Shown here in pieces: positions 6,585-25,013 of a DNA stretch of 64,000 bases. The first letter of the stretch is position 1. Every line of letters begins with the position of its first letter. The DNA comes from Pseudonocardia sediminis. Lineage in GTDB: Bacteria; Actinomycetota; Actinomycetes; Mycobacteriales; Pseudonocardiaceae. Under the pieces are notes generated by a model. That model was given only the letters and a program-made list of their open reading frames with translations. It was not told the DNA's origin and made no database searches. The stretch lies in the NCBI RefSeq assembly GCF_004217185.1, contig NZ_SHKL01000001.1, positions 557,001 to 621,000 of the forward strand, written 5' to 3'. The translations under genes and the position numbers were made by a program.

Positions 6585-7931
6585 GTGCACATCTCCCGCG
6601 CGCCGGAGCGCCCGGCCCCGTCCGGTCCGTCGGCCTCTCCCACCCCGAGCCCGGCCCGCTCGACGGTCCCGCTCGGCGACTTCGGGCCCGGCGACGAGGC
6701 CAAGCGCCGGGACCTGCGCAAGATGAAGATGCTGGCGACGGGGTTCTTCGTCGTCGCCACGATCGTCTTCCTCGTCGCGAAGTACCTCGAGGACGTCCAG
6801 GGTCTGGGCTGGGCCGGCTACGTGCGGGCCTCCGCCGAGGCAGGCATGGTCGGTGCGCTGGCCGACTGGTTCGCCGTCACGGCCCTGTTCCGCCACCCGC
6901 TGCGGATCCCGATCCCGCACACGGCGATCATCCCGCGCAAGAAGGACATGATCGGCGACAGCCTCGGCGACTTCGTCGGCGAGAACTTCCTGTCCGAGGC
7001 CGTGGTCCGGGACAAGCTGGACCGGGTGGGCATCAGCTCCCGGGTCGGCACCTGGATCGCCCAGACCGAGAACGCCGACCGGGTCACCGCCGAGCTCACC
7101 GCCGCCGCCCGCGGGATCGTCACCGTGCTGCGCGACGAGGACGTCCAGAACGTCCTGGAGACGGTCGTCGTCCGCAAGCTGCTCGAGGTGCCCGTGGGTC
7201 CGCCGCTGGGCAAGGCGCTGGAGGGTGTGCTGGCCGACGGTGCGCACAAGCGGCTGGTCGACCTGGTCTGCGACCGCGCCTACGACTGGGTCGCCGACAA
7301 CGAGGAGATGGTGATGCGCGTCGTGCACGAACGCGCGCCGTCGTGGACGCCGCGCTTCGTCGACGAGATGGTCGCCGACAAGCTGTTCGCCGAGGTGCGC
7401 GGCTTCGCCTGGAACGTCAAGAACGACCCCGAGCACCCGCTGCGCCACGCCGTGGACCGCTACCTGTCCGAGTTCGCGACCGACCTGCAGTCCGACCCGG
7501 CGACGATCGAGCGGGCCGAGCAGGTCAAGCGCCAGGTCGTCGAGCACCCCGAGGTGCAGCACTTCATCGGCCGCGCCTGGACCGTCGTCAAGTCGATGGT
7601 GCTCGACGCCGCCGAGGACCCGACCAACGAGCTGCGCCTGCGCGTGCGCGACGCGCTCGTCGGGCTGGGCCGGCGCATCGAGGGCGACGACGAGCTGCGC
7701 GGCAAGATCGACGGCTGGGTCGCCGACGCCGCCGGGTACGTGGTGCGCCACTACCGCCACGAGATCACCACGCTGATCACCGAGACGGTCGCCCGATGGG
7801 ACGCCGAGGAGACCTCGAAGAAGATCGAGCTCCAGGTCGGCCGGGACCTGCAGTGGATCCGGATCAACGGCACGGTCGTCGGCGCGCTGGCCGGCCTGGT
7901 CATCTACACGGTGTCCGAACTGATCATCTGA
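6585..7931 (+). CDS. DUF445 (YjiN-type) membrane-associated protein
   Basis: A 448-residue protein of the DUF445 family. One N-terminal membrane helix (MLATGFFVVATIVFLVA), the conserved ADWFAVTALFRHPL and PHTAIIPRKKDMIG blocks, a long charged central region with coiled-coil character, and a second hydrophobic helix at the extreme C-terminus (VVGALAGLVIYTVSELII). Function is unknown; members are linked to envelope biology. GTG 6585 is chosen because the upstream frame is low-complexity; CACTAT seven bases before it could be the -10 of a leaderless mRNA. It stands between a terminator and an HTH gene. Confidence 0.85.
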   Translation: MHISRAPERPAPSGPSASPTPSPARSTVPLGDFGPGDEAKRRDLRKMKMLATGFFVVATIVFLVAKYLEDVQGLGWAGYVRASAEAGMVGALADWFAVTALFRHPLRIPIPHTAIIPRKKDMIGDSLGDFVGENFLSEAVVRDKLDRVGISSRVGTWIAQTENADRVTAELTAAARGIVTVLRDEDVQNVLETVVVRKLLEVPVGPPLGKALEGVLADGAHKRLVDLVCDRAYDWVADNEEMVMRVVHERAPSWTPRFVDEMVADKLFAEVRGFAWNVKNDPEHPLRHAVDRYLSEFATDLQSDPATIERAEQVKRQVVEHPEVQHFIGRAWTVVKSMVLDAAEDPTNELRLRVRDALVGLGRRIEGDDELRGKIDGWVADAAGYVVRHYRHEITTLITETVARWDAEETSKKIELQVGRDLQWIRINGTVVGALAGLVIYTVSELII

Positions 7932-20967: not shown

Positions 20968-20973
20968 GTGCGC

Positions 20974-22407
20974 GTGATCGAGCGCCTCTTCGGTGTCACC
21001 GCCCGCGGATCGACCGTTCCCCGAGAGCTGCGCGGGGGACTGGTCACGTTCATGGCGATGGCCTACATCATCGTCCTCAACCCGCTGATCCTCGGATCGA
21101 TCAGCCCCACCGACCCCTCGGCCAAGGTCGACGCCGTCGGCGGGATCCTGCCGATCGCGCAGGTCGCGGCCGTCACCGCGCTCGTCGCCGGCGTGATGAC
21201 GATCCTGTTCGGCGTGTTCGCGAACTACCCGTTCGCGATCGCCACCGGACTCGGCATCAACACGCTGCTCGCGGTCACCATCGCACCGCTGATGAGCTGG
21301 CCCGAGGCGATGGGCCTGGTCGTCATCGACGGCGTGATCATCGTGCTGCTGGCGGTGACCGGCTTCCGGACGGCGGTGTTCAACGCCGTCCCGACCGAGC
21401 TCAAGACGGCGATCGCGGTCGGCATCGGCGCGTTCATCGCGATGATCGGGCTGGTCGACGCCGGGTTCGTGCGCCGGCTGCCGGACGCGGCGAACACGAC
21501 GGTGCCGGTGTCGCTGGGCATCGACGGGTCGATCGCGTCCTGGCCGACGGCCGTGTTCGTGCTGGGTCTGCTCATCATGGGCGTGCTGGTGGCGCGCAAC
21601 GTGCGGGCGGCGATCCTGATCGGCGTCGTGATCAACACCGTGATCGCGATCGTGGTCGAGGCGATCTTCCAGGTCGGTCCCTCGGCCGGGACGAACCCGA
21701 AGGGCTGGTCGCTCTCGGTCCCGGCGATCCCGGACACCGTCGTCGGCGTCCCGGACCTGTCGCTGGTCGGCAACGTCTCGTTCGGGGCGTTCTCCCGGCT
21801 CGACCTGATCACCGTCGTCCTGCTGATCTTCACGCTGGTGCTGGCGAACTTCTTCGACGCGATGGGCACGCTGACCGGTCTCGGCCAGCAGGCCGGACTG
21901 ACCGACAAGGACGGCAAGCTGCCGAACGTCGGGAAGGCGCTGGTCGTCGAGGGTGCGGGTGCGGTGGCCGGTGGTGTCGGGTCGGCGTCGTCGAACACGC
22001 TGTTCGTGGAGTCCGCCGCGGGCGTCGCCGAGGGCGCCCGGACGGGTCTGGCGAACCTGCTCACCGGAGTGCTATTCCTGGCCGCGATGTTCTTCACGCC
22101 GCTCTACGCGATCGTGCCGGTCGAGGCCGCGGCGCCGGCGTTGGTCGTGATCGGCGCGATGATGTTCCGCCAGATCACCGCGATCGACCTGTCCGATCTG
22201 CGGATCGCGATCCCGGCGTTCCTGACCGTGGTGGTCATGCCGTTCACGTACTCGATCGCGAACGGGATCGGAGCCGGGTTCATCAGCTACGTCGTGCTGG
22301 CCGCGGCGACCGGGCGGGCGAGGTCCGTGCACCCGCTGATGTGGGTCGTGGCGGTCGCGTTCGTCGGCTACTTCGCGGTGGGCCCGCTGCGCTCGCTGTT
22401 CGTGTGA
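20974..22407 (+). CDS. NCS2-family purine permease (AzgA-like)
   Basis: A 477-residue transporter with about 14 membrane segments and the AzgA-like NCS2 motifs: TFMAMAYIIVLNPLIL near the start, ATGLGINTLLA, NFFDAMGTLTGLG and EGAGAVAGGVGSASSNT, which line the substrate site. Members import adenine, guanine or hypoxanthine with protons. No xanthine-binding variation can be assigned. It stands alone on its strand, with a possible small-RNA gene downstream before the next gene end. Confidence 0.9.
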   Translation: MIERLFGVTARGSTVPRELRGGLVTFMAMAYIIVLNPLILGSISPTDPSAKVDAVGGILPIAQVAAVTALVAGVMTILFGVFANYPFAIATGLGINTLLAVTIAPLMSWPEAMGLVVIDGVIIVLLAVTGFRTAVFNAVPTELKTAIAVGIGAFIAMIGLVDAGFVRRLPDAANTTVPVSLGIDGSIASWPTAVFVLGLLIMGVLVARNVRAAILIGVVINTVIAIVVEAIFQVGPSAGTNPKGWSLSVPAIPDTVVGVPDLSLVGNVSFGAFSRLDLITVVLLIFTLVLANFFDAMGTLTGLGQQAGLTDKDGKLPNVGKALVVEGAGAVAGGVGSASSNTLFVESAAGVAEGARTGLANLLTGVLFLAAMFFTPLYAIVPVEAAAPALVVIGAMMFRQITAIDLSDLRIAIPAFLTVVVMPFTYSIANGIGAGFISYVVLAAATGRARSVHPLMWVVAVAFVGYFAVGPLRSLFV

Positions 22408-22430
22408 CCGGGGTCGTCGCGAGAACGGTC

Positions 22431-22460
22431 TTGACCGGACAGCGTAGGTTAGGCTAACTT
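22431..22460 (+). promoter_or_regulatory. Promoter overlapped by an iron box
   Basis: TTGACC (22431-22436) and TAACTT (22455-22460) are 18 bp apart. The -10 lies inside the iron box at 22444-22462, so an iron-loaded repressor would block it. Confidence 0.5.
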
Positions 22461-22462
22461 CA
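22444..22462. promoter_or_regulatory. DtxR/IdeR-type iron box
   Basis: Matches the mycobacterial 19-bp IdeR consensus TTAGGTTAGGCTAACCTAA at 16 of 19 positions, including the whole central AGGTTAGGCTAAC. It lies between the 3' ends of two convergent genes, where no protein gene starts. Confidence 0.7.
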
Positions 22463-22466
22463 ACGA

Positions 22467-22545
22467 GTCGCTTCGTGGTGGGAGCGGCGCGTCAGTTCGG
22501 GACAGAGAAGGCCCCGGCCCCACCGGGCCGGGGCCTTCTCCCTGT
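22467..22545 (+). ncRNA. Candidate iron-regulated small RNA
   Basis: Predicted transcript of about 75-80 nt from the iron-box promoter to the 16-bp hairpin. No good reading frame begins in it. Mycobacteria have an IdeR-controlled small RNA (MrsI) of similar size, so an analogous iron-sparing RNA is plausible; sequence similarity to MrsI was not tested. Alternative: the hairpin is only the shared terminator of the two flanking genes and the iron box is fortuitous. Confidence 0.4.
22505..22540. terminator. 16-bp hairpin terminator
   Basis: 22505-22520 pairs perfectly with 22525-22540 around CACC; can serve the permease, the candidate small RNA and the convergent GH16 gene. Confidence 0.85.
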
Positions 22546-22585
22546 GACCCGCATCCGGCCGCCGAGACGGGCGCGGGTACGTCTC

Positions 22586-23512
22586 CTACAGGCCGTAGAT
22601 CCGGACCCAGTCGACCTGGAAGTCCAGCTTCTCCGGGGAGCGCTCGTCGAGCGCCGGGATCCAGTCGTCGCCGTAGGGACCGATGTCCTGCTGCATGGCC
22701 AGGTGCATCGGGCGCGGCGGGATCGTCTTCCGGTCGGTGGTCCGGAAGACCTCCTTGCCGTCGATGAAGCCCACGATGTGGTCCGGGGTCCACTCGACGG
22801 CGTAGTTGTGCCACTGCGTGAAGTCGCCGGTGATCGTCTTACCGACCTGGCTGTTGTCCTCGCCGTAGTGCACGATCACGTGCGACTCCGTGCGGTCCCC
22901 CTTCGGGACCTCCATGAAGTTGATCTCGCCGCCCTCGGGCCAGTCCTCGGCGTCCGGCCAGAGCAGGATGACGTCGCCGTAGCCGCTGCCCTTGTTCGTC
23001 TTGGCGCGGACCTCCCAGCGCCCGTACTGCTGGCCCTCGCGCCAGGCCATGCCCGCCGAGGTCTTGCCGCGGCTGGTCAGCGTCAGCTTGCCGTCGCCGA
23101 CGGAGATGTTCTCCGCCTTGTGCCGCCCGACGCCACCGGTGGTCTCCCCGGTGTAGGGGCTCCACAGGTTCCGGTTCAGCGAGGTGCCGTCGAACTCGTC
23201 GTTGGCGATCAACGGCCAGTTGTTCTTGACCGCCGCCTCGGCGTCCGACCGGTTCGACGGGTCGAGCGGGGAGCTGGCGGTCGGGCGCAGCTGGTCGTTC
23301 ATGCCCCCGGGGGCGGGAGGCGCGGGCGGTGCCGCCGCGGGCGTCTCCTGCGAGGAGCCGGCCGGGTCGTGGGTGACCGCGATGCCCAGCACGGCGCCGA
23401 GCGCCAGCACCGCGAGCAGCGTGAGTGCGGTCATCAGCGGACGACGACGCCGTCCCGGTTCCTCGTCGGGATCCGGTGGGGACGGACGTGTCGTCTCGGG
23501 CGCCTGGGACAC
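22586..23512 (-). CDS. GH16-family secreted glycosidase-like protein
   Basis: A 308-residue protein: a cytoplasmic Pro-rich head, one membrane anchor (LMTALTLLAVLALGAVLGIAV), a short Pro-Ala linker and a GH16 beta-jelly-roll domain (about 105-308) with YGRWEVRAKT, LWPDAEDWPEGGEINFMEV and HNYAVEWTPDHIVGFIDG. GH16 enzymes cleave beta-glucans and galactans with an E-x-D-x-x-E triad. Here the middle residue is Asn (E-I-N-F-M-E), which may weaken activity. GTG 23512 follows GAGGGGAG; an upstream in-frame start lacks a site. Its downstream-encoded twin (next gene) keeps the Asp, so the two arose by duplication. Confidence 0.85.
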   Translation of the reverse strand: MSQAPETTRPSPPDPDEEPGRRRRPLMTALTLLAVLALGAVLGIAVTHDPAGSSQETPAAAPPAPPAPGGMNDQLRPTASSPLDPSNRSDAEAAVKNNWPLIANDEFDGTSLNRNLWSPYTGETTGGVGRHKAENISVGDGKLTLTSRGKTSAGMAWREGQQYGRWEVRAKTNKGSGYGDVILLWPDAEDWPEGGEINFMEVPKGDRTESHVIVHYGEDNSQVGKTITGDFTQWHNYAVEWTPDHIVGFIDGKEVFRTTDRKTIPPRPMHLAMQQDIGPYGDDWIPALDERSPEKLDFQVDWVRIYGL

Positions 23513-23588
23513 GCGGTCTCCCCTCGGGTGCGTTTCGTGCGGACCCGGCACAAACTAGACAGATCCGCCTGTGTCCACGCTGAGAGGA

Positions 23589-25013
23589 TCAGCCGCCGGC
23601 CTGCTCCCCGCTCCCGGCCGGTTCCCCGACGCCGCCCGAGGACGCGCCGTCGAGGGCGTACTGCTTGACCCAGTCGACCTGCATCGTCGACTCCTTCGCG
23701 CTGTCCCCCTTGGGAAACCAGTCCAGCTGGATGCACAGGTGCATCGGGCCCGGCGGCAGGATCGAGGTGTCGGTGGTCTTCCACCACTCCTTGCCGTCGA
23801 CGAACGCGGCGATGTGGTCCGGGGTCCACTCGACGGCCCAGTTGTGCCACTGCGTGCCGTCGATCTCGACGTCACCGTCGACCTGGGAGTTGTCCGCGCC
23901 GTAGTGCAGGAAGATGTTCGTCTTCTGACGGGTCGGGTCCATCATCTCCATGAAGTCGACCTCACCGCCCTCGGGGAAGTTCTCCGCGTCCGGCCAGAGC
24001 AACAGCAGGGCGTTGTACGACGGGTCCGACGCCGGCGCCTTCACCCGCCCCTCCCAGCGGCCGTACTTCTGGCCGGGGTTCCAGGCCATGCCTGCGGTGT
24101 TGCCCTCCGAGTCCCCGGTGATCGTCAGGACCCCGTCGGCGATGCTGACGGCGTCCGGGGTCCGGCGGCCGTTGCCGCCGTGCCCGGGGCCGTCGTAGAT
24201 GCTCCAGCCCTCGGTCCCGCCGGTGAAGTCGTCGGAGCGGACGGGGTTGCCCCAGCCCAGCGACTCCGCCGCGGTCGTGCCCTGCCCGGTGCTCACGCCG
24301 GCACCACCGCCGGTGCCAATCGCGGGGGAGTCTGTTCCGTTCGTGGTGCCATCCCCCGATCCTGCATCCGGCGCGGCCCCGGCGCCGGGCGCGTCGCCGG
24401 ATCTCTTCTTCCCGGCGTCGTCTCCGGCCGGGCCCGCGTCCTCGCCGTCGCCGTCGCCGGTGGAGCCGCCGGCGTCGGTTCCCCCGGAACCACCGCCGGA
24501 CCCGCTCCCGGAACGCGTGTCGCCGACGTCGCCCTCGCCGGAGCCCGTCCCGCCGGGCGCGGTCCCCGTCCCGGTCCCTCCCGTCCCTGTCCCGCCCGTC
24601 CCGCTGCCGGCGCCGTTCTGTCCCGTCCCGGGGGCCGTGCCCTGCTTCGCCTCGCTCCACGAGCCGGACGGGGGAACCGTTGCGACGCCGCCCGCACCCG
24701 GCGCGGTCCCGTTCGTGGCCGGGGTGCCGGTCCCGGTGGACGGACTCTGCTGCCCGGTCCCGGTGGACGGGGTGGTGCCGGTGGACGGTGTCGTCCCGGT
24801 ACCCGTCGAGGGGGCGGGGTTCTTCCCGGTGTCGGGGGTGGTCGGCGTCGTCCCCGGCCCGGTCGACGGCTGCCCGCCGACGGCGGGCGGGGTCGCGGTG
24901 TCGCCGGGTTCCACCCCCATCAGCTGCCCGGCCGGGCCGACCACCAGGACCAGGACGGTGACGCCCTTGGCCAGCAGCTTCTTGATCAGTTCCTGGAGTT
25001 CGTCGGCGTTCAT
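23589..25013 (-). CDS. GH16-domain protein with TG-rich linker
   Basis: A 474-residue protein. ATG 25013 has AGGAGCG upstream. The first 45 residues (MNADELQELIKKLLAKG, then VTVLVLVVGPAGQLMG) form an amphipathic helix plus a short hydrophobic stretch rather than a standard signal peptide. About 200 residues of Gly/Thr/Ser/Pro repeats (PSTGTG-type) follow, then a GH16 domain (about 250-455) with an intact GGEVDFMEMMD triad and a short Gly-rich tail. The linker suggests a surface or wall-spanning protein. It lies 18 bp behind the preceding operon gene, implying it is co-expressed with the TcpC-like cluster. Confidence 0.82.
   Translation of the reverse strand: MNADELQELIKKLLAKGVTVLVLVVGPAGQLMGVEPGDTATPPAVGGQPSTGPGTTPTTPDTGKNPAPSTGTGTTPSTGTTPSTGTGQQSPSTGTGTPATNGTAPGAGGVATVPPSGSWSEAKQGTAPGTGQNGAGSGTGGTGTGGTGTGTAPGGTGSGEGDVGDTRSGSGSGGGSGGTDAGGSTGDGDGEDAGPAGDDAGKKRSGDAPGAGAAPDAGSGDGTTNGTDSPAIGTGGGAGVSTGQGTTAAESLGWGNPVRSDDFTGGTEGWSIYDGPGHGGNGRRTPDAVSIADGVLTITGDSEGNTAGMAWNPGQKYGRWEGRVKAPASDPSYNALLLLWPDAENFPEGGEVDFMEMMDPTRQKTNIFLHYGADNSQVDGDVEIDGTQWHNWAVEWTPDHIAAFVDGKEWWKTTDTSILPPGPMHLCIQLDWFPKGDSAKESTMQVDWVKQYALDGASSGGVGEPAGSGEQAGG

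Follow-up and report, generated by a model that had tools for sequence, protein, structure and literature searches.

The closest described system is MrsI (ncRv11846) of mycobacteria, which acts on bfrA, hypF and fprA and adjoins blaI/Rv1847, as given in the available parts of two reports (PMC8628891; PMC11188477). The available portion of PMC9410917 treats the iron-sparing RNAs of different bacteria as unrelated, yet sharing targets, and places aconitase among the predicted targets of IsrR and RyhB-type RNAs. No IdeR-linked iron-sparing RNA besides MrsI was met in the portions of the literature that our search covered. In Corynebacterium, the DtxR-RipA system lowers aconitase one step beneath a DtxR/IdeR-type iron regulator, the middle step there being a protein repressor, whereas in Pseudonocardiaceae it would be an RNA.

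Here, a locus of Pseudonocardia sediminis (GCF_004217185.1, NZ_SHKL01000001.1, forward strand 557,001-621,000) was analysed, and this whole stretch of 64,000 nt is called the window. The comparisons set out below argue with high confidence that the locus encodes an IdeR-controlled small RNA. The full reading, in which this RNA of Pseudonocardiaceae spares iron by pairing with the acn leader and lowering aconitase, an iron-containing enzyme, is probable. The finding is larger than the sequence-only reading of this DNA had stated, namely a family-wide small RNA that is very probably iron-regulated, and its likely target, aconitase (acn), is new here.

Like MrsI, the predicted RNA has an IdeR box at its promoter, hairpins with a terminator, an exposed hairpin loop, a length of about 80-100 nt and a proposed iron-sparing role, as far as the available parts of the MrsI reports go (PMC8628891; PMC11188477). 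It differs in lying between PF00860 and GH16 genes rather than between blaI and the Rv1847 gene, in its own sequence and loop, and in its proposed target, acn, as against the bfrA, hypF and fprA reported in those parts. The sequence-only reading had called the unit like MrsI, which holds for promoter type and proposed role, but not for detectable sequence similarity or genome position. RyhB, PrrF, FsrA and IsrR are iron-repressed RNAs aimed at iron-enzyme mRNAs, as the Pseudonocardiaceae RNA would be, but are Fur-controlled, whereas the latter has an IdeR box (PMC9410917, available portion). As described in the sources available, IsrR and FsrA pair by C-rich segments; in the Pseudonocardiaceae RNA the loop is G-rich and the linker contains GUUCGGG. 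Sequence comparison with these RNAs was by Rfam scans.

Promoter, iron box and predicted RNA

The unit lies in the gap between convergent genes where it had been placed earlier, with a permease on the plus strand on one side and a GH16 protein on the minus strand on the other. Its features are listed below; the 189 distinct units referred to share an exact 14-base loop block, and many of them were chosen by a GTDB pattern scan, part being selected for the -10 element.

20968-22407, plus strand: permease, PF00860, upstream neighbour
22431-22436, plus strand: -35 element TTGACC, from the sequence
22444-22462, plus strand: IdeR iron box overlapping the -10, 16/19 to the consensus by consensus match (14 to 18/19 in 30/30 loci fetched with the RNA model)
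22455-22460, plus strand: -10 element TAACTT, from the sequence (TAACCT or TAACTT in 175 of the 189 units, part of which were selected for it)
22467-22545, plus strand: predicted small RNA of about 80 nt, its start inferred from the -10 and its end from the terminator hairpin
22467-22488, plus strand: 5′ hairpin of the predicted fold, stem 22467-22474/22481-22488, loop GUGGUG at 22475-22480
22489-22504, plus strand: conserved single-stranded linker with GUCAGUUCGGG, from the alignment; complementary to acn leaders and the predicted pairing segment
22505-22540, plus strand: GC hairpin of 16 bp, a terminator lacking a T run, from sequence and fold; equivalents in the 189 units
22586-23551, minus strand: glycosyl hydrolase family 16 (GH16) protein, downstream convergent neighbour

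Both elements of the TTGACC-18-TAACTT promoter read earlier were present, at 22431-22436 and 22455-22460, with a spacing of 18 nt. Among the 189 units the -35 usually takes the form TTGACN or TTGCNN, with 17-18 nt to the -10, and TTCCCA was seen too. A strict sigma-70 scan listed no promoter in 21500-23500. The iron box, which reads GTAGGTTAGGCTAACTTCA, is the sole site with at most three mismatches both in the window and across the 6.6-Mb genome, and no such site appeared in 100 shuffles of the window; the 16/19 match over the -10 that had been claimed was thus recovered. The genome holds three genes with Fe_dep_repr_C, the C-terminal domain of IdeR/DtxR. From Saccharopolyspora erythraea, IdeR has been obtained in pure form and applied in gel-shift assays (PMC8464063).

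The GC hairpin of 16 bp downstream of the box had also been read correctly, 22505-22520 pairing with 22525-22540. No T run follows it (CTTCTCCCTG stands there instead), and a consensus terminator scan did not list it. The predicted folding energy of the RNA at 22464-22545 was -56.8 kcal/mol (z -5.65). The 5′ hairpin at 22467-22488 was absent from the earlier reading, as were two further genome copies and the relatives. In the terminator region, an unbroken helix of at least 8 bp was found in 99% of the 189 units versus 20% of 322 random windows, and the sequence itself was varied, with 150 different 20-mers among the units. Three pairs of the 5′ stem outside the 14-base block were paired in 100%, 97% and 95% of the units, with some two-sided changes, and a fourth in just 52% of the 189. 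In the genus g3, the stem was rewritten and the loop unchanged. Against Rfam 15, no family reached its gathering score in the window, and the loci holding the three copies were without a match at E <= 1.

Conservation in the Pseudonocardiaceae

Searching the own genome with 22380-22600 revealed two extra copies, C1:1954506-1954581(-) and C1:731028-731117(+). An identical 35-nt core, GTCGCTTCGTGGTGGGAGCGGCGCGTCAGTTCGGG, was present in all three copies, and their terminators and surroundings differed. The wider family, the Pseudonocardiaceae, is a large group of soil bacteria and has among its members producers of erythromycin, vancomycin-type antibiotics and rifamycin. When its genomes were searched with 22425-22505 (box included), as the sequence-only reading had suggested for related genomes, the unit was matched in 187 of 200, covering 44 of 46 genera. 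A covariance model of the RNA, R1, was also made from 55 copies and overlaps the box by just two bases; it was built on the RNA part because circularity with the box was to be avoided. The 13 genomes that did not match the query include one (G071) with a good R1 match, E 1.3e-9, and one of genus g3 (G121) with a diverged copy and a box of 14/19. Nine g42 genomes, G017 and G087 remained without a copy among the 200.

The GTDB pattern scan returned at least 118 stretches, and the 80 titles listed were all Pseudonocardiaceae/Pseudonocardiales except one, 'Nocardia sp. NRRL S-836'. Since the pattern demands half the box plus the loop, it cannot show the reach of diverged forms. In 298 genomes of the order, searched with stricter filters than were used for small sets, R1 identified 53 family genomes at E <= 3.8e-12 and gave weak matches in 11 genomes outside the family (E 6.9e-4 to 7.1e-3). 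All 11 of these loci were inspected and none had a nearby box above 10/19, and they were rejected as homologues outside Pseudonocardiaceae; one of them, G408, kept a linker-like stretch without a box. At the loci fetched with R1, on the other hand, the box was found just upstream in 30 of 30, with at least 16/19 in 29 and 14 in one. The pattern that had been named as speaking against the unit, a hairpin conserved without its box, was therefore not seen.

Conservation extends jointly over box, RNA core and terminator hairpin, as one unit, while the neighbour genes differ. This joint conservation and the three genome copies support the candidate IdeR-controlled small RNA. No published account of it was found in our literature search, the candidate table of PMC3827479 lying outside the reach of that search. 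The available part of the latter, a study of small RNAs in S. erythraea, gives 265 intergenic candidates, and the S. erythraea copy may be an unnamed entry among them.

Aconitase leaders and other candidate targets

The acn genes were taken from 14 genomes and from 30 more picked to cover g3, g42 and outgroups. A start codon could be assigned at 37 of the 44 acn loci, four family members and three of the four outgroups being lost. The acn, leuC and sdhC genes were told apart by size and N-terminal peptides, and L354 and L360 were excluded from the comparison. Several acn leaders (e.g. L356, L361, L367) have common elements, GTGCGCGAGACTCG within the leader and, near the promoter, CAGGACAAGCGTACTG, which we take to be an AcnR-like operator.

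In 26 acn leaders from genera other than g1 (the genus of the window), g3 and g42, the mean length of the longest exact match complementary to the RNA core was 9.27 nt, compared with 6.18 nt for dinucleotide shuffles. Individually, 17 of them reached p < 0.05 and nine had no significant site. Sites such as CCGAACTGAC, CCCGAACTGACT and GTTCCCGAACT are typical and lie 13-70 nt ahead of the start. Adding two g1 leaders gave a mean of 9.25 over 28 leaders, which none of 300 shuffled cores reached (best decoy 8.00). Complements of at least 9 nt, mostly to the linker, occurred in 19 of the 28 leaders versus a decoy mean of 0.82, and no leader of the 28 reached 9 nt in the sense-orientation control. 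Since the decoys met the same related leaders, shared ancestry alone does not explain the excess. For g3, which has a changed linker, 0/4 acn leaders were significant at p < 0.05, and the single outgroup leader left had no significant site. Duplex energies were at p < 0.05 in 11/26 leaders (mean z -1.89) and gave p 0.22 in the own genome, backing the acn site in part only and more weakly than the exact matches.

In the own genome, the loop CGUGGUGGG has its complement, CCCACCACG, in the acn leader at 14 nt ahead of the start (p 0.020). A further 9 nt upstream stands CCCGAAC, which is complementary to GUUCGGG, and this order fits a single two-part duplex. The loop pairing in g1 has two genomes as its basis, and in the other one, G139, the longest match fell at another segment with just p 0.055. 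Taken over the leaders compared, these complementarities indicate that aconitase is likely the target, and it is the best supported one.

The other targets examined were the leuC, sdhC and AurF families and a neighbour gene, superoxide dismutase. The leuC leaders had a mean of 7.64, above all 300 decoys, with at least 9 nt in 4/14; leuC was rejected, the excess lying mostly in a motif common to leuC upstream regions. Several of these regions (L341-L353) carried a motif like CCCACGAAGCGATACTA, possibly an operator. The sdhC family was rejected as well, its value being reached by 15/300 decoys. The loop 12-mer with at most one mismatch occurred at 106 sites versus 74 for a reversed control, the first 30 of these sites being taken as loci. 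A one-mismatch loop complement was found right after the start codon of an AurF-type diiron oxygenase in the own genome; it was probably a chance site, because it was not retained in 30 AurF loci, and 255/300 decoys reached the AurF value. For efeB, a one-mismatch site 67 nt inside the gene was set aside. Of 22 superoxide dismutase leaders, two carry 10 nt of complement ahead of the ribosome site. The complements in leaders L170 and L215 of this gene, which often adjoins the RNA, are CCCACCACGA and GAACTGACTG, shortly before the start.

It is conceivable, though unlikely, that the IdeR-controlled RNA acts mainly on other or several mRNAs and that the acn complementarity is minor or accidental. 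The comparison covered just four families of targets plus one neighbour gene, the loop ranks with the best-conserved parts whereas most acn sites match the linker, and the two superoxide dismutase complements point the same way. However, 300 decoy cores placed on identical leaders fell short of the acn sites, and no such site arose in the sense orientation.

In the preferred reading, with acn as the target, IdeR would occupy the box over the -10 when iron is present, and transcription would be blocked. When iron is absent, a trans-acting RNA of about 80 nt would be made, with a 5′ hairpin bearing the G-rich loop GUGGUG, the GUCAGUUCGGG linker and a GC hairpin end. This RNA would pair with the acn mRNA leader close to the ribosome site, using the linker, at GUCAGUUCGG, in most of the genera examined and, in the genome of the window, the loop together with a portion of the linker; aconitase synthesis would then be lowered and iron kept for other use. 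If true, it would add to MrsI an unrelated IdeR-linked iron-sparing RNA, family-wide and with a directly testable named target. It would also back the view, in the available portion of PMC9410917, of iron-sparing RNAs arising independently and converging on the same enzymes, and the two candidate pairing segments with the varying acn sites would provide a natural series on small RNA seed change.

The genus g42 counts against this reading. Perfect loop complements of 9-13 nt (p 0.005-0.045) were found in three of its four acn leaders (L417, L418, L420), 24-27 nt before the acn start, and the site was in a predicted hairpin loop in two of the four. No RNA copy was found by BLAST in the nine g42 genomes, and R1 gave at most 21.3 bits; in 1.2 Mb (19%) of G042, a g42 genome inspected in stretches, no box was seen linked to the loop. 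The complements point either to a diverged g42 RNA keeping the GUGGUG loop or to coincidence. We tentatively consider, as a possibility that is more doubtful than the target itself, that one RNA family controls aconitase family-wide with exchangeable pairing parts, the linker serving in most genera and the apical loop in g1 and g42; in g42 the mRNA site would be C-rich and the remaining RNA too altered to be recognised. The RNA and the acn leader would have co-evolved through seed switching. Elsewhere in G042, an iron box of 15/19 was seen at about 7846-7864 (+) of L434, a little ahead of a gene for a presumably MbtH-like protein that starts MTNPFDDENG...

Improbable MrsI orthology and coding potential, and gene neighbours

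That the Pseudonocardiaceae RNA is an orthologue of mycobacterial MrsI is very improbable. The promoter type is alike, with the iron box over the -10, and two f8 genomes, probably of mycobacteria, carry box-plus-hairpin MrsI candidates on the upstream side of blaI that show the same hairpin-linker-terminator layout, but with other sequence and loop. When R1 was run over five f8 blaI loci standing for MrsI, two of them with such a candidate, it scored at most 10.7 bits, and there was no strong R1 match outside the family in the 298 genomes of the order. The neighbours also differ. One f8 locus around blaI (L142, 361-428, minus strand) contained a Guanidine-III riboswitch at 52 bits.

We give little credence to the conserved core coding for a small peptide (GTGGTGGGAGCG...). 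An open frame does run from 22475, with the same start in both other copies, but this start falls in the hairpin loop with no ribosome site before it. From genus to genus the frame is shifted by a one-base gap in the core although the bases themselves stay conserved, which makes a peptide unlikely.

The neighbours were surveyed at the 118 loci listed by the GTDB pattern scan, with genes from a simple gene finder. Among these loci, the upstream same-strand genes comprised 58 of one MFS cluster, 13 UPF0014 and 7 NCS2, and the downstream convergent genes 33 Fe/Mn superoxide dismutases and 14 GH16; 25 neighbour genes form a cluster that is presumably arylamine N-acetyltransferase-like. Since the neighbours vary among the loci listed, the unit occurs in several contexts. 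The 58 pairs with a same-strand MFS gene would suit a unit that ends the upstream gene, as its terminator or 3′ end, and has no RNA of its own. The upstream genes vary, however (MFS, UPF0014, NCS2), and some are on the opposite strand, against an unchanging box, -10 and core, which leaves this hardly plausible. In the window, the GH16 gene (22586-23551) and the gene at 23589-25013, both on the minus strand, have C-terminal halves that look similar by eye, suggesting a duplication.
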